A model generated the notes under the pieces. That model searched no databases and was not told where the DNA came from. It saw nothing but the letters and a program-made list of their open reading frames with translations. From NCBI GenBank assembly GCA_020543525.1, contig JAHYIO010000004.1:930001-994000 (forward strand): DNA of 64,000 nt, written 5' to 3'. This stretch comes from Coriolopsis trogii. Taxonomy: Eukaryota; Basidiomycota; Agaricomycetes; Polyporales; Polyporaceae. This document shows, one piece after another, positions 53,110-62,060 of this stretch (the stretch's first letter is position 1; each line of letters opens with the position of its first letter). Both the position numbers and the translations under genes were made by a program.

Positions 53110-56100
53110 TCATCCGTAATGGGGAGTGTGTACACCGAGTCCGCTTTTCGATCGCATGTTAAACATCGTACGCGACACCATCGTCGTTGCGATCCTGAGA
53201 AAGAGGAAAGATGAGTTTGCAATCTTTTGGACATGCATGACTTTCTTCACACAGTAGTGATCGTGACACCGGCATCTCTGTATGCGGGCTATCAAGACAA
53301 TCAGACAGAAGGAATCAGATGTGATGCTTCGTCTGCGAGAGATGGAGCTAGGACGCACATTGGCGAGCTGCAAGCAGTGATCGGACGGATTGACATAGCC
53401 AATGGGCATCACAAGAGGCAGTTAGTAACGCAGAGTGTCAGTGAGCATGGGGATCGCATCCACGCACCAACGAAACGAGTATGTTACCCAGTTGACAAGC
53501 AGACGATACCCTGTATGTCACCGAGAGAATGAGCACGAACCGCAATTGCTGCTAGGCGATACAGGGGCCATACGCGAAGAAAGCAACTCCTGTCTTCGTC
53601 AGTTAGGGACGACGCATCGCAAATATAGTAGTGGGACCACTGACCGTCCCGAATGAGGATGGAGAAGAGACTGTGACTCTGCCTTTTTCGGACCCGTAAC
53701 AAAGGATGCAGCATGAGACCAAGAAGCAGCGTGTCGAAGACCATGAGACATGCCCATACGATGGCCAAATATACAGCAAGCGTGAGCTCATAGCACCACG
53801 ATCCCAGGAAACGTGTTCAGGATACGTACATCTCCCCCTAAACGGACGATATCGACGGGATAAGCGTACATGTAGGGGCAGGTGGAGTGTATGCTAACTT
53901 ACTGGTATCGCCACTCGCTCGGGTCACACTGTCGGGACTGGACAGTACTACTAGACGCGTAAGATGTAACGGATGAGCAATGTGTCTTCCATGTCTGTCC
54001 TATCGCCCACTGCGCAAATATGCCGGTCGTCAGCCTGTGAGTCGCATGAGTAAAACCTCGAAGCCGTCCATCGCACTCACCCCGCCGATTGAGCACACAA
54101 TGATACCCAGCGCTACAAGGGAGAATAGGACTATTCGGCTTCGGTTGTGTAGCGCATACACTCGAGAGACTTGAAGGGCTGTGGCGGCCAAAGACACTCG
54201 TGAACATCAAACTTCCTCAAACAGGGGTGCCCTAGATACCTCCAATGATCAGCTGCATTACTCCTGCAAGCATCTGGTGATACGCCTGCAAATTCTGCGT
54301 ACTGTGTCACAATTCGTTAGGGGGAGGGCACACTATGTTCTGGTTGCATGTATCTTACAGCTTTACATATGAGATTCAGTCATACAGGTCGAGCATGTAG
54401 CATCCGAGCTACTCACCATGCTTTTCGAGTCGAAAAATTCCAGGATTATTGGTACATGCCCGAACAGCCCCAAATATCGGTTGAGGAAGAACCCAACAAT
54501 ACCCGGAGACATACGCCATCGTTTCCTCCAGTACTGGTCAACCTCGGTTCGTAAGGTGAGTGCATAGTCATAGTACAAGATGGCTGCATCAGCATTCCGT
54601 CAATATGCCCAGGAGCACCAGGAGCACCGGTGCTCATGGTGCTCCCGGTGCTCCGGGGAGCACATGGGCCTGGCTCGGAGAAGCACTCAAGGTGCTCCGC
54701 TGAGCACCAGTGCTTTGCTAGGAGCACAGGTGCTCAGCGGTTGTTACTGCTCATAGGAACCTAGCCCGAGCACACCTACAGAAGCCTTTGATCACGCGTG
54801 CACACTGTATTAGGGTGCAAATATCATATTACTACATATAACATAATCACGAACGATGCTTATGCTAAGCAGACTGGTATAGGGTCATACTGATCAGATG
54901 GAGCATTGACGCCGAAAGCACATAAGAACGTAACTTACTCGCAGTCGGAGCAGGCACGCTCAGCAGCAGCGCACTCAATCTACCTGCAAGCGGAGCTGCG
55001 CCTTACGGTCCTGGGTGGAGACGCCATCGCTGCTCGCTGTCGGCGAGCACACTCGGTCTGTCGTCCGAGTGGTCACCAGTCGCGGGGAAACGTGACGCAA
55101 AAGCGGACTTTGTTCTCCTTGTCGCTGGGATGCAAGATGCGGAGTGCGGTGCAAGCTCGGAGGGGAGTGTGTTGTTCGTTCGGGCGCATCTTGACAGAAA
55201 TATGTAGCACGTGCAGCAGCGGCGTGAGCGGTGGAGCGTGCTCGTTATGTGGTCCTAGCATGGCAACTACAAGTCACACACCTTGTCGTCGGAATCGCCC
55301 TCATCCGGGTGGGGGCTACTGCTACACACATACGGGTCCGTAGTGAGCTCAAAGCCGTTATCCGGGTGGTCGAGCCAGGCAGGCAAGAGCACAAGAGATC
55401 CGTCCGCGAGGCGTCCCTATTTTCCAGAGGCCAGAGGCAAGTCACTACGAGAGCGACGTGTAGAAACCGTGCGAGATGCCAGAGAACCAGAGAGAGCCAG
55501 AGATAACAAAAGAGCGTACGGCCGATAGACCAAGACACAGTGATAGCATGATAGCAAGACTCAGAGAGCAAGAGCGAGAGCGAAAGCGAGACTAGCACCT
55601 GCGAGATAGAGAGAAGAGAAATTGATGAGCATCGGTCGCCGTGGTTCAAGTTTCGAGCGCTCACAACTTCCCACGCCTGTACACTCTAGCGCTTACTATC
55701 GCAACTCATGGCGTGACGGCATCGGTCCTCCGACATACTCTCTCTCGTCCTTTCTAGTTACTAGCTCAAGTTGCACACGCATACCGGAGAATAGGGGGTG
55801 TCTTCGCACGGACGGCGACACCTCTCGACCGCTACTCACCTTCGCGGACACCAACTCACACGTAGGACGAGAACGTTGAGGATTGCATAGCAAGACCACC
55901 GATGAGACAAGGGCAGAAAGCAGAAACGGCGAGGATAGCAAAGACAGTGAAGAGGGGAGCATGAGAGCGACAGGGAGAAGGACAGCGAGGATCACAAGAG
56001 TCAGGAAGGCGAAGAGAACGACTCTGACCAGGTACGTGAGGGCCAAGGGCGGAGATATCCTCGTCTCCTCGTATTTTCTCGACCCCATCTCTTCTCCAAT

Positions 56101-56764
56101 TATTATATATTTTCTCTCATTTCCTCTCGCTCGTGATTGCTGCGAGGAAGTCGCGGCAGACGAGGCAAGATCACCGAGCGCATAGGCGTCCGCTTGCATG
56201 GCCCGCGAGGACACCATTCTGACTCCTCGCGGCCCTTGCAGCGGTGAGGAGTCAGGATTGTGAGGACAAATACGACGAGAGCAACGATGTACTTAATAAC
56301 TCGTCCCTCTCCTCGTCCTTGTCCTCATCTCTGTTCTTTGTCTATAGTCTCTCCCTTCTTCAACGACACTACCGTCTATTTCCTCCGTGAACGTTTTAGA
56401 TAGCTATATACACAATATATCTGACTATCATATACGTTGTCTGGGCTCCCGTGTCATGACCCAATAATCCCTGGAGCACTCTCATATACGCTGAGCACCG
56501 GTGCTCCGCTGAGCACTGGTGCTCACATTAAAAACCCCAGTGCTCTGCAGCTAAGCACTAGTGCTCCTGTTGAGCACTCAGAGTGAGCACCATGCAGAAT
56601 GCTGATGTGATATGCGACGTATAAGTACATTCATTGGAATGATGTGAAATAATGTGCTCACCGAAGGAGATAGTAGCAATCGTGCGTGCGGTGAAATCGG
56701 TCTGGGGACTGTACGGACGATCATTTGACACGATTGATATGACAATTTGGTGGGTTCCATGCAT
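53110..56764 (-). CDS. DUF6533 membrane protein 1 (intron insertion)
   Basis: A seven-helix-like membrane protein of the DUF6533 family, expanded in Agaricomycetes, function unknown. Exon 1 (56662-56764) encodes MHGTHQIVISIVSNDRPYSPQTDFTARTIATISF (34 residues, shown here by landmarks: TDFTARTIATISF). Exon 2 (54417-54583) carries the DUF6533 core AILYYDYALTLRTEV ... FFLNRYLGLFGHVPII. A two-base exon at 54359-54360 is required to restore frame. Later exons give LQAYHQMLAGVMQLIIGG, RVYALHNRSRIVLFSLVALGII, WAIGQTWKTH, AIVWACLMVFDTLLLGLML and the C-terminal VSRTMFNMRSK. Intron 1 is 2078 bp because a DNA transposon (54587-56607) sits in it. Other introns are 50-120 bp. The 3' exons are less certain than the 5' ones. 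Confidence 0.7.
54359..54360 (-). other. Two-nucleotide exon (CT), DUF6533 gene 1
   Basis: Bounded by AG on its 5' side and GTAAGA on its 3' side. The flanking introns are 56 bp (54361-54416) and 57 bp (54302-54358). Exon 2 ends in phase 0 and the next exon enters with one base, so exactly two bases (mod 3) are needed. Confidence 0.65.
54612..54736. repeat. Sub-terminal GAGCAC/GTGCTC repeats, left
   Basis: About a dozen copies of GAGCAC or GTGCTC within 125 bp, many arranged as short palindromes such as GAGCACCGGTGCTC. Probably transposase-binding repeats of the element. Confidence 0.75.
56488..56592. repeat. Sub-terminal GAGCAC/GTGCTC repeats, right
   Basis: The same motif family at the other end, with palindromes such as GAGCACCGGTGCTC, within 30 bp of the right terminal repeat. 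Confidence 0.75.
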
Positions 56765-57913
56765 ACCTTGTGCCAATATCCGTCGGCGACGCCATGCGTG
56801 ACTAGCACACAGGTCAAAGCCACAAAGAAAACTCCACAGGGACTAGATATAAACCAGTCACCCAGGTTAGGAAGCATAGTTGTCTCCCTTTCCACTCATC
56901 TTATGTACTGCTCAGGATCTCGTCACGATTTGATTTGGGGGATTGATATCTTCGAACCTCTATAGCGTGACAGATCTCGGCTCATAGTGAACGTTGACGA
57001 GGCTGCAGAAGGTAACGACAAGGGACAATAAAGCTTCCAAAGATGTAGATGATCACACACCACATGTTTGGTTTTGACCGTCTCCTTGTGAGCGCTGAGA
57101 ATCCTGCCGCTCCTCCCATGTCCCGAACCTGATGGTCTATCGAACTGGTATTATAGTGAGCGCGATTGACCGTACCTAGTGAAAATAGGATACAAACAGC
57201 AGTTCTACCGGAGGGCCTGGGAGTCTGCCAGACTTCAAAGCTTAGGATCACGATCCTGTGAACCGGGATCTGATCATGCGGGAGCAAACAATGTGACAGC
57301 CAGCGGTGTTGCCCTTACATTTGGCGAGTAGGACATTCGGAAGGTGCTGTGTCGTTCATCTGAGCCCCATCTGAGAGCAAGCATTCAGTCGTTGCAGACT
57401 CTAGGCTACGTGCTCACCACTATGTTGCATACAACTATTGCTGATAAAATGAGCTGTGGGTATAGCGAATCTTTCGCCGAAGTTCGCAGAGAGAACAAGC
57501 CGGACGTTATAGTATTATCAGGCTGAGCGCTGATCGTGCCAATGTGGAGCACGGACAGTTGACTTGCGGCGTCGTTCTGTCCACCCTGCCTACGAACTTA
57601 CATCAGCACGAAGGTACCACGATATTCAAGTTACATCGTAACACTCAGCGAAGAGCCTGCAATAGGGCATCGAACTCATCTCTTCGTCCAGACCTGCCAA
57701 GAGAGGGCTGTGTTATGCACTGGTCGATCTTACTGTGCCCGGCCACACATGCGATTATGAGACATCGCAGACTGCAGCAAAAATGCTGAACAGCGCAGAT
57801 GTTGAGACGCTGGTGGCCCACTTCAAGTCACGTTGAATGACTTGACTCAGTGTGCTGACTTCATACACAGGTCGTCCACCAAGTCGCATCATAAGCTCGG
57901 ACCCTGAAGAGCT
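56765..57913. other. Intergenic between DUF6533 genes 1 and 2
   Basis: No gene recognised. It holds the promoter of gene 1 and the 3' flank of gene 2. Confidence 0.4.
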
Positions 57914-59639
57914 TTACACTATGGCTTCGCCAACGCGAAGAGACGTACGGCATTCGGGAAGTACTAGCTCGTCAGACGGCCAACCATGACGCCCCTTGTT
58001 CAAATTCGGGTCTCGAATGTTCAGCATGAGGCGGGAGATTAGAGACGTTGCGATGCTGCGAATGGGGCAATAGTGTCAGGTCACCATACCGGCAGGGAAT
58101 CAGGTATGGGTTATTGTAACGAGGACGTACACATTCGTAGTCGTGACGCTGATGCCTCTATATGCAGGCTGCATGAAGTTGGTAGGGATATGTGATATAG
58201 ACGCAGCAAATGACAACTCACAAATGCGGCCTGTGCGGAGCAAAGGGATCATGTCGTAAGCAGATAGAGGGGTCCCACGTAGCGTGATGACCTACCAGAC
58301 AGGTCACTATGTTTGTGAGGTGACATACGAAGAGGACACTGGGGATATAGCGCGGATCAGTCCAGGAGACTCATATAAAGGCCCTCTTACAAAGAGCGTG
58401 GACACCCACGCGAAGTAGACTGTGCCTGAACATTCGTAAGAAGGGCGCGAGACAGATCGGGGAAATGAACGATGAACGTACCGTCCCTCAACATAAGTGT
58501 GAACAAGCTCCCGCGCACCTTCTCCCCTATTTGAAGGACGCGGTACAGCGTGAGGGTGAAGATGATGAAATCAAAGACCAATATGCAAGCCCATATACTG
58601 GCCAGGTCTGCGTGCAATTCCCACCCTTTCAGTAAAGCCTAAACACGACTACGAAATCCTACCAGCAACTCACAATCGCCCCTGTGGGCGTCGTTGAATA
58701 CCATGAGTCGTCTACGGGCAGAGCAATCACGTACTGTTCTGGCAACATCATGAGGTTGCAACCGGCAGCCGAATTCGATATTACTCTAGGAGGGGCCGCC
58801 GAGGCTCGAAACGTTTCCCATGTCCTACTGATTGCCCACTGTACGAGGTGAGAATGGTGGTCAAGCGCATGCTTGCGCTGAGGGGTGCTCTCCGACTCAC
58901 CGCAGCAAAACCGGTCATAGTCACACACAAGACGACCAATGTCAGAAGAAGACGTTTGCTTTTTCCGTAGAGCGCATACACGCGAAAGATCTGCAAGGCT
59001 GAAATGCGACGTTCGGGCCAAATCTGTCATTATCTCAGGCAGAGGTCGTTTGACGATGTGGATACGTACCTCCGACAATGACTTGTATGACCCCTGACAG
59101 TATCTGGTGGTACATTTGCAGAGTGGAACATCTGTTACGCATGGTTCATGACGTAGCAGTGCGGGGTGACTGGGATGCGACTACTCACGACTGCAGGTGA
59201 CATCAGGCAGTCAGCTCAGCGAAACATTATGCGTGCGATACTCACATGTTGATTGTGCGACCCATAGAACTCGTAGAAAATGGGGATGTGGCCGAGTAGA
59301 GAGAGATAGCGGCTGGTGAACCAGATAATCGAGGCGACTGTTACAGGCCGCTTCCAGAATCTCTCTACTTCCCTACCCAACGTAACGAAATAGTCGTAAA
59401 GAAGTATCGCTATTTCCGCAGGCGTCCAAACGTCAGAACACACACTTCTAGTTATACATCAGGAGACACCTACTGAAGGCCACGGACGAGGCGATGCGGA
59501 TGGTGTAATTTGACTGCGTGCTACACACGTGAAGCTCCGTTAATACTCATGCAAAGCGTGAGATATACGAGAGTACAAGAATGACGCACATCATAGACAT
59601 CATAGATGTGAGCTCAAGGTTCATTGTAAGGATAGTCAT
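57914..59639 (-). CDS. DUF6533 membrane protein 2
   Basis: The best preserved copy of the cluster. It starts MTILTMNLELTSMMSMITQS at 59639 after joining the first two exons. The DUF6533 core is SSVAFTILLYDYFVTLGREV ... TSRYLSLLGHIPIFYEFYG. A two-base exon (59189-59190) follows, then LQMYHQILSGVIQVIVGG, RVYALYGKSKRLLLTLVVLCVTMTGF, WAISRTWETF, a variable Cys-containing loop (AAGCNLMMLPEQY), ASIWACILVFDFIIFTLTLYRVL, GSLFTLMLRDGT, and the C-terminal signature IATSLISRLMLNIRDPNLNKG, ending RVGEAIV at 57914. About seven hydrophobic helices; function unknown. Related proteins are often annotated only by the DUF. Confidence 0.75.
59189..59190 (-). other. Two-nucleotide exon (TC), DUF6533 gene 2
   Basis: Preceded by CTGCAG and followed by GTGAGT. 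The flanking introns are 55 bp (59191-59245) and 57 bp (59132-59188). It supplies two bases between a phase-0 exon end and an exon that enters with one base. Confidence 0.7.
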
Positions 59640-60378
59640 CTGCGCAGAACGAGTGACCAGCACTGGGGGGAAGGAAGTCCAATTGACAGTCCAGACTGTG
59701 TTGAAGGTTCGAGGATGACCGGAGGCAGATTCATATACTCATGCAATCCTTCGACGCAGCTCCACTCCAAGGCTCTGCCTGCCAATCTCGATCAAGACAC
59801 ATGATCATAGTTTCACCAACGTTTGAGATGTTATGGACAGCCTGGGAGTCCATGAAGGTAGGAGTGCATCTTGGCTTATGTTCGCGATCGCATGGATGAG
59901 CTAGTATTATACCGGCGGTATCAGCGTGATTATACGAACGAGGTGCAATAGAGACCAACCATATCCCAGGATGACCCTTGCCACTGTCGCGGGGTCCGAC
60001 CGTCGATGGACTCGTGGGAGGATTGACCACAGTATCGAGAAGCTATGCACCATCAACTATATATGAAGCCTTCGCGAAGCCTTGAAGCACACGCAGTGCC
60101 GGCCGAGGTCAAGGACTGCACGGAGGCCATTGGCTGTACCGGTGAAAGCCAGACACTCCCCCATGCGTTCTGACAGCACTGCTATATTTTGTACCTGTGC
60201 GTCGATGTCCATTCAAAGCTGTGAATATGTTCATACTCACGAAGTCCATCCATTTCCAATAGGTTATGGCATGTCACAAGCCTACAATAACTCGTGCGAA
60301 CCATCGCACCGATCAGCCGCACAGTCGTGTCATAGTGTCGCGGACACAGTCAAGGCAAGCACACCACGTACACCGAGG
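59640..60378. other. Intergenic, nothing recognised
   Basis: Space between DUF6533 genes 2 and 3. No supported gene or repeat. Confidence 0.4.
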
Positions 60379-62060
60379 TCAGGGGGCGAGCAATGACGGG
60401 ACGACAAGTGCGCTTCGATCGCGATGACTTGAAACTGTCTTGACTCGGCTGTGATCACTATGTAGCATTCTCTCTCCAGGTGGCCCAGCGAAAGCGACAA
60501 ATTGCAGTTGAATTTCCCAAGAGGATTCTGATCCAAAACTGCCTCGGCGGTCCGGATCGCGGAGGTTGAGCATGAGCCGTGTAATAAGGATAGTTGACAC
60601 ACTAACCCACATCTGTGAGAAATGGCACATAGATACAGCAGATTACCAGACGTACACGTTGGTGAGAGAAGTGCTTGCACCCTTGTGGACAGGCTATGTA
60701 TGATGGCCAGGGCTATCAGTAGGTGATCCCCATGCAATGCCAAGAGTTACCGACCTGTGCGAACTGTGCGTAGAATACATGAGCATCGTAGTATATCAAT
60801 ATATCGACTTGCCAGTACGCACCGCATAGGCTAGTATGTTGGATAGATATAACACGAAGAGAATACTGTGCATTACGTGAGCGATGGTCGTCAACGGCAG
60901 GCGCACTTTCTCCGACGTACCTAAAATACATAAACCCTGTGTAGGTCGAGATACATGAGCACCGCACATCGTGTGGATCGATAGATGAACTCACCATCAC
61001 GTAGCATGATACTGAAGTAACCTCCTCTCCACATATGCCCGATTCGTAGTGCACGTGTAACTGTGAGGGCGAAGACAGCGGCATCGAATACTAGTATCGA
61101 ACTCCATGCGATGGCTAGCTCTGCAGGACGTTAGTCACTAGTCCGGCTTGCCTTTCTCTCAAGACTCACTTAAGCCTCTGCGCGCCACATTAGCAACAAG
61201 ACTAAAATAGAGACATATACTCGAACGATACGTACTCGTCCTGAGACAACGTGAGATCGCAGCCGTCGTGAATGGCGCAGTCTGAGGCCGCTTCGCATTG
61301 TGGTCGCCGATGATGACCCACTAGAGTGAGGACCAGTAAGCATTCAGTGCGGGCGGGACATCGATAAGGAGCATACCAACGAGACGGCGACGCCAATGCA
61401 TCCGAGCATGATGAGGAAGGACAGGATCCTCCAGTTTCCGTTATATAGAGCGTATGTTCGAAGCGCCAACAGCGCTATAACGTATGCGTAGCCATAAGCA
61501 ACTCCCCAAGCGAATCTAAGGCGGTTGCAACACATACCGCCCACTACGCCCTGCGTCATCGCACTGATGATCCGGTGATACTGCTGCAGCTGTCGACACC
61601 TCCAATAACATCAGCGTCACTAGCCCGTCAAAAGGGTGGAAAGGATGGCATACTCCTAGACAGCCGTCACCATGACTTACAACCCACACAAACGAGACAA
61701 CATTATGCGCAACTCACATATTGAGGCAAAATCCCGAAGAACTCCACAACAACAGGTATGTGGCTGATCACGGACATGTACCGATTAAGAAGAGGACCGA
61801 AGCCAACGATAAGCCATTTCGCCAATAGTGCTTCACCTCGAGTGGAAATGTGAGCACATAGTCGTAGTAGAGAAGCGCTGTGGATGACGAATTGAGCGGT
61901 AAATCGAAGAGGAGCAACGACCGGGGGCGTACTCACAGAATGCCACGGAGGAGAGAACGCGATTCGTGTATCTCGACTCTATGCTGATGTACGGCCCGGG
62001 ATCATGAAGCTGTGAAGCGGTGTGCGAGAAGCATGAGACTCACGTCAACTCGGGAGGTAT
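60379..62060 (-). pseudogene. DUF6533 membrane protein 3, frameshifted
   Basis: The same exon layout as genes 1 and 2: SIESRYTNRVLSSVAF, then the core ALLYYDYVLTFPLEVKHYW ... NRYMSVISHIPVVVEFFG, a two-base exon (61654-61655), LQQYHRIISAMTQGVVGG, LRTYALYNGNWRILSFLIMLGCIGVAVSL, a Cys-rich loop (CEAASDCAIHDGCDLTLSQDEY), LAIAWSSILVFDAAVFALTV, and the C-terminal STILITRLMLNLRDPDRRGS. Exon 2 (61718-61877) is 160 nt where frame needs 161: one base is missing just before NRYM, at about 61795. The rest is intact, so this is either a young pseudogene or a sequencing error. The 5' end beyond about 62,000 is not resolved. Confidence 0.65.
61654..61655 (-). other. Two-nucleotide exon (GA), DUF6533 gene 3
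   Basis: Preceded by TCTAG and followed by GTATGC. The flanking introns are 62 bp (61656-61717) and 54 bp (61600-61653). Same position and phase as in the other two paralogues. Confidence 0.6.

Follow-up and report, generated by a model that had tools for sequence, protein, structure and literature searches.

In the literature that we found, nuclear one-nucleotide exons are limited to a small number of conserved examples from plants and Fusarium. The 1-nucleotide (nt) exon of Arabidopsis APC11 is correctly spliced, and its authors suggest intron definition with successive removal of the introns (PMC4674806); APC11 and VPS55 carry such exons in land plants (PMC8831610). In Fusarium CYP621A, a 1-nt exon was found by phase incompatibility, with an intronless relative and SRA reads as support, and the same paper mentions exons of 2–5 bp in Arabidopsis, Drosophila, and humans in passing (PMC12940212). 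Here, we describe three DUF6533 genes in a 64,000-nt stretch of the basidiomycete Coriolopsis trogii (the window; C4:930001-994000, contig JAHYIO010000004.1), taken from a genome of 38.8 Mb in 39 contigs. All three are encoded on the minus strand. In each, the exon encoding the DUF6533 core is followed by two short introns that are separated by two bases. As judged from the genomic sequence, it is very likely that the main DUF6533 clade of this genome has a constitutive 2-nt exon flanked on either side by a U2-type intron of ~55–60 nt; the two introns would be removed stepwise.

The predicted exon resembles that of CYP621A in being an ultra-short fungal exon with phase incompatibility and an intronless relative. 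The Fusarium exon, however, has 1 nt and belongs to one orthologue set across that genus, whereas the exon described here has 2 nt, is modelled in 88 paralogues of one genome, and is accompanied in many of them by a second predicted 2-nt exon (PMC12940212). With the exons of plant APC11 and VPS55 it shares a size too small for exon definition, its omission from annotation, and its fusion to the neighboring sequence in intronless copies, but those are one-nucleotide exons in few-copy plant genes (PMC4674806, PMC8831610). The P450 genes of Phanerochaete chrysosporium are similar in coming from a white-rot basidiomycete and in forming an expanded family with introns of 45–55 bp and very short exons, but the shortest exon reported there is 6 bp (PMC1184071). 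Ascomycete stwintrons likewise consist of two adjacent short U2 introns that need consecutive splicing; they differ, however, in that the inner intron interrupts a splice motif of the outer one, with no exon separating the two (PMC5639578). We found no published report of 2-nt exons in DUF6533 genes in the open-licence full-text literature. One genome offers 88 modelled 2-nt exons at the first site and another 59 at the second, in which the two bases (NN) vary naturally and intron-lacking paralogues serve as controls; therefore, the handling by the spliceosome of sites two bases apart should be testable by comparison alone.

The predicted exon in the window and across the family

The three window genes matched the PF20151 profile with 42.8, 45.6, and 41.0 bits, above the curated cut-off of 24.1 bits, and are thus members of DUF6533. 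In gene 1, the core exon spans 54417–54587, counted from the Pfam match up to its phase-0 donor (ATG|GTGAGT). It is followed by intron 1 (54361–54416, 56 bp, GTGAGT...AAG), the predicted 2-nt exon CT (54359–54360), for which the family-wide spacing control below is relevant, and intron 2 (54302–54358, 57 bp, GTAAGA...CAG). Joined to the next exon, CT gives the codon CTT (Leu). In gene 2, the core exon ends at a phase-0 donor (59246–59413), and the pair TC (59189–59190; codon TCA, Ser, before Cys) lies between introns of 55 bp (59191–59245, GTGAGT...CAG) and 57 bp (59132–59188, GTGAGT...CAG). Gene 3 has a core exon at 61718–61887 and the pair GA (61654–61655; codon GAG, Glu, before Cys) between introns of 62 bp (61656–61717, GTGAGT...TAG) and 54 bp (61600–61653, GTATGC...GAG); the acceptor of the latter is weak. 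A preliminary description, made from the letters of the window, had placed AG-NN-GT at these positions, and on re-reading the sequence we recovered all of its coordinates and intron lengths. AG precedes each pair (AAG, CAG, TAG), GT follows it (GTAAGA, GTGAGT, GTATGC), and the next exon enters with a single base in all three genes, as had been stated.

A genome-wide Pfam search gave at least 125 DUF6533 matches, 108 of which were fetched in 80 regions; without nine divergent loci, 99 main-clade loci remained. The window genes belong to a subfamily of ten loci with a C-x-x-L-Q-x-Y-H-like exon, all ten of which have AG-NN-GT midway. NN is CT, TC, and GA in the window, and CG (five loci) or AG (two loci) outside it. 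The pattern continued beyond this subfamily, with AG as the most frequent pair. The motif YAG-N(n)-GTRNG occurred with n = 2 in 54 of the 99 loci, and in 0–4 loci at each of the remaining spacings between 0 and 15. Dinucleotide shuffles (30 shuffles of the 99 loci) gave a mean of 2.7 and a maximum of 6 loci at n = 2. The mark of an ultra-short exon, complete splice sites flanking one or two coding bases that the frame needs, was thus found.

In curated gene models, 88 of the 99 loci fit a phase-0 exon end, an intron, two bases, an intron, and an exon entering with one base. Eleven loci for which the automatic search gave no model or incorrect sites were set by hand; the first donor assigned to C8:278100 is doubtful. 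Across the 88 models, intron 1 measured 45–80 nt (median 57) and intron 2 47–86 nt (median 58). The first donor was GT in 86 and the second in 84, the rest being GC. The pair was AG in 52 loci, GG in 18, CG in 5, and another in 13, so that 75 of the 88 had the form NG. The codon completed by the next exon encoded Ser in 45, Gly in 18, Arg in 14 (together 77/88), and other residues in 11, and the residue after it was Cys in 84. The preliminary description had presented the arrangement as a feature of three genes. It was real there but understated, since 88 of the 99 main-clade loci could be modelled with it, 59 of them with a second 2-nt exon.

The proposal that the bases vary while splice sites and phase are kept was borne out by these models. 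In the window subfamily, the interiors of the two introns showed identities of 0.50 and 0.49, as compared with 0.47 after shuffling, whereas the flanking exons reached 0.57 and 0.61 (shuffled 0.51 and 0.48). Because the intron interiors are near shuffled identity, the splice sites appear to have been kept while the introns are nearly saturated. Branch-site-like sequences had also been pointed out. CTRAY was enriched in both introns family-wide, being present in intron 1 of 32 of the 88 loci (shuffled mean 14.1, maximum 23) and in intron 2 of 39 (shuffled mean 12.8, maximum 22). The enrichment is about two- to threefold, with positions mostly 10–20 nt from the 3' end of the intron; however, at these counts more than half of the introns lack the strict form.

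Intron-lacking paralogues and homologues in other polypores

Eight of the 99 loci lack one or both introns and, by eye, spell the joined codon in plain DNA, which is the fused state expected of a true exon. Five of them are without intron 1 (four on contig C33, and C4:293340); their single remaining intron is in phase 2, and the upstream exon ends with the two bases. In the clade of the four C33 paralogues (which includes L059, L060, and L061), the joined bases are AG in three of the four, the commonest 2-nt exon. C7:356643 and C25:696665, without intron 2, have one phase-0 intron, and the two bases start the Cys exon (TGG TGC and ACC TGC). C25:391784 has neither intron and reads ACC TGC. In a midpoint-rooted tree (80 columns, 95 rows, few deep forks resolved; C25:391784 and the three loci without a model left out), C4:293340 and C7:356643 were nested inside clades of copies with the 2-nt exon. 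Therefore, intron loss is indicated at these two loci, and the 2-nt exon would be the older state. On this reading of the sequences, at least two copies have lost one intron since the 2-nt exon arose. For the C33 clade, the order of states is less sure. The 2-nt exon probably predates the majority of the family's duplications in this genome.

The closest proteins come from Lentinus, Polyporus, and Cerioporus, with best matches at 60–67% identity. We inspected the first 56 of 254 homologues of one subfamily member, 52 of which have the region. Exactly one residue lies between the exon boundary and Cys in 13 of these 52, and 39 have an insertion or deletion there. The number of exact cases was reduced by hand from 16 to 13, as the regular-expression matches P0020, P0032, and P0053 were removed by eye; P0047 and P0049, which read V-C, are the less certain members of the 13. 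Of the named polypore gene models with the region, 39 of 49 are broken at the point of the 2-nt exon and 10 are exact. In the models P0003, P0005, P0028, and P0037, the first part of the Cys exon is missing.

All three 'lgn' open reading frames (ORFs) among the 56 homologues are exact (P0014, P0023, and the more distant P0055). P0014 is an uninterrupted 330-residue ORF on a 1195-bp contig with the junction AEQ-R-C, and P0023 has 324 residues on 1115 bp and reads SQP-R-C. P0023 is identical to the Fomes fomentarius model P0037 at 287 of 324 positions (89%), and the only gap comprises 10 residues exactly at the junction. Because a contig of only 1.1–1.3 kb carries a full-length ORF in these entries, we infer that P0014 and P0023 are transcript assemblies. 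Two further protein searches returned no 'lgn' entry in one case and only the distant P0219 in the other. In an alignment of 22 homologues, chosen largely for intact junctions, the Cys is invariant.

The 2-nt exon, as predicted from sequence, offers a reason for the frequent breaks in polypore models of this family. It would often be missed by gene-finding software, and its omission shifts the frame of the remaining protein. The broken models affect counts and comparisons of DUF6533 proteins.

Splicing model and alternative explanations

Introns of such short length are normally recognized by intron definition. The preliminary description had argued that two bases are too few for exon definition. 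This is fair, but each of the two introns would here be recognized by intron definition, and therefore recognition of the 2-nt exon as a unit would not be required. Only two bases separate the intron 1 acceptor from the intron 2 donor, and simultaneous occupation of both is unlikely; for this reason, splicing would proceed stepwise, with one intron removed first and the other then left in a normal exon context. As the exon is mostly NG (75/88), it also supplies the G at position –1 of the next donor, which may help that donor. The two bases would form the first two of the codon before the conserved Cys, at the N-terminal end of predicted helix 3, and omission of the exon would join its neighbors out of frame.

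Several observations weigh against a constitutive 2-nt exon. The survey took in 108 of the 125 matches, the other 17 being on C8, and C28:2780789, C1:3309591, and C30:1540974, three of the 99 loci, are without a model. Reading by eye of the nine divergent loci, most of which have the core split by a different intron, revealed no such arrangement. P0014 and P0023, which bear the source label 'lgn', belong to other species and are putative transcripts, represented here by their ORFs. Splicing directly from the core exon had been said to break the frame in the three window genes. This holds for the acceptors chosen in the preliminary description but is too strong, since other acceptors restore the frame in all three: gene 1 has them at +7, +16, +28, and +49, gene 2 at +28, and gene 3 at +10, +16, +19, and +49. 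Across the family, some in-frame acceptor within –30 to +60 permits a direct splice in 56 of the 88 loci (within 12 nt in 17).

These acceptors could mean that a single intron of ~115 nt is removed and that the frame is kept by an acceptor a few codons downstream, AG-NN-GT being a relic. Several NCBI models indeed miss residues as though in-frame alternative acceptors were used, and P0003, P0005, P0028, and P0037 look like products of downstream acceptors. However, in-frame acceptors are not more frequent than out-of-frame ones: AG acceptors of the in-frame class occur within –30 to +60 in 59 of the 88 loci, as compared with 41 and 59 for the other two classes. A single intron would also delete the Cys, which is kept in 84 of the 88 models and invariant in the 22 homologues (picked largely for intact junctions), while P0014 and P0023 retain both the codon and the Cys. 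Neither the enrichment at n = 2 only nor the paralogues with a fused codon would be accounted for, and we regard the single intron as highly improbable. Slightly more improbable still is a stwintron or recursive site, in which AG-NN-GT is an intermediate within a single intron and contributes nothing to the mRNA. Excision of stwintrons proceeds through consecutive reactions (PMC5639578), and the pair AG, found in 52 of the 88 loci, creates AG|GT, as in a ratchet site of zero length. The remaining 36 copies have other pairs, which do not give a zero-length exon, and if all the sequence from the first donor to the last acceptor were excised, the frame would lack two bases. Each intron has a complete donor and acceptor of its own, with two coding bases between them; therefore, neither interrupts a motif of the other as in a stwintron.

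A conserved 2-nt exon, as the preliminary description had proposed, gives the best fit to the spacing, the phase, the codon before Cys, the intron-lacking paralogues, and the intronless homologous ORFs. Such an exon could in addition be regulated, with skipping as a frameshift off switch for single members of the family; this would add to its presence, and the probabilities of the two readings overlap. Skipping shifts the frame in every copy, and the shifted frame meets a stop within 20 codons at 21 of the 88 loci and within 40 at 71 (genomic read-through including the next intron). The family is large, and many copies lie close together. However, the frameshift follows from any 2-nt exon, and the strong-looking splice sites of most copies suit constitutive use, so regulation appears unlikely. 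We consider equally doubtful the broadest extension, in which a whole expanded polypore family of seven-helix proteins has two obligatory 2-nt exons per gene, ~150 in one genome, under selection, possibly as frame switches that choose the protein-making members.

Second site, predicted fold, and state of the window genes

A second site lies 400–460 bp past the start of the Cys exon (e.g., in L068 and L050). There, without restriction on exon length, YAG-N(n)-GTRNG was found with n = 2 in 48 of the 88 loci, with n = 8 in 9, and with each other n from 0 to 25 in 0–7. Models in which only 2, 5, 8, or 11 nt were permitted, at a score of at least 8, were obtained for 69 loci; the exon has 2 nt in 59 of these models and 8 nt in 10. 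The predicted exon follows a phase-2 donor and precedes an exon with a two-base entry; the two lengths differ by two codons and have equal phases. Eight of the ten members of the window subfamily have the 8-nt model. Of the other two 8-nt loci, C25:931646 groups with the window subfamily in the tree, and C4:523790 is uncertain, as it also has the 2-nt signature. The polypore homologues P0126 and P0193 read ARK-L-VIASR, identical to the prediction from spliced C30:1573251. In the window, gene 2 has the predicted 8-nt exon GGGCGATT (58674–58681, minus strand) after a phase-2 donor and a 53-bp intron and before a second intron, for which the downstream acceptor chosen by the script is doubtful. 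The second-site model of gene 3 gives AGGCTTAA (61170–61177, minus strand). The candidate of gene 1, GGGGAGAT (53830–53837, minus strand), is weak, with a score of 7.3, below the counting threshold of 8.0, and a poor downstream frame fit. Further on, a 16-nt exon (G-x-x-Y-F-like) recurs, with YAG-N16-GTRNG in 62 of the 88 loci and other n from 0 to 30 in 0–10. Its window positions are 58410–58425 (gene 2, GCACAGTCTACTTCGC), 60921–60936, and 53574–53589.

AlphaFold2 modelling of the homologue P0014, used in place of the window genes, yielded seven helices (predicted local distance difference test, pLDDT, 75.5; predicted template modeling score, pTM, 0.70) and placed R83-C84 where helix 3 starts. 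A Foldseek search of this model against the PDB gave no match below E 0.001; matches were weak (best E 0.036), and among the best 50 of 731 the highest query template modeling score was 0.52, to Ste2 (7qa8). The conserved Cys may pair with a Cys in the loop that precedes helix 5, an arrangement seen in many G-protein-coupled receptors. SNB1 of Coprinopsis, also a DUF6533 protein, has seven predicted transmembrane helices, like the P0014 model; according to the title of that report, snb1 is required for fruiting-body patterning (PMC10949477).

Gene 2 is the cleanest of the three window genes. The preliminary description had the core exons end in phase 0 at GTGAGT, which holds locally in all three; for gene 3, however, the phase is only local, because the frame changes inside its core exon. 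The change lies at ~61780–61795 (minus strand), just before the motif LNRY, which is in a different frame from the PF20151 match, and may reflect a pseudogene or an assembly error. Gene 1 encodes Thr at 54298–54300 (minus strand), the position of the Cys in 84 of the 88 copies, after the Leu codon of its 2-nt exon. Given the loss of the Cys in gene 1 and the frameshift in gene 3, decay of some of the window genes is possible. Clusters of the short repeat GAGCAC/GTGCTC lie between the genes at 54610–54740 and 56470–56600, one of them close upstream of gene 1.

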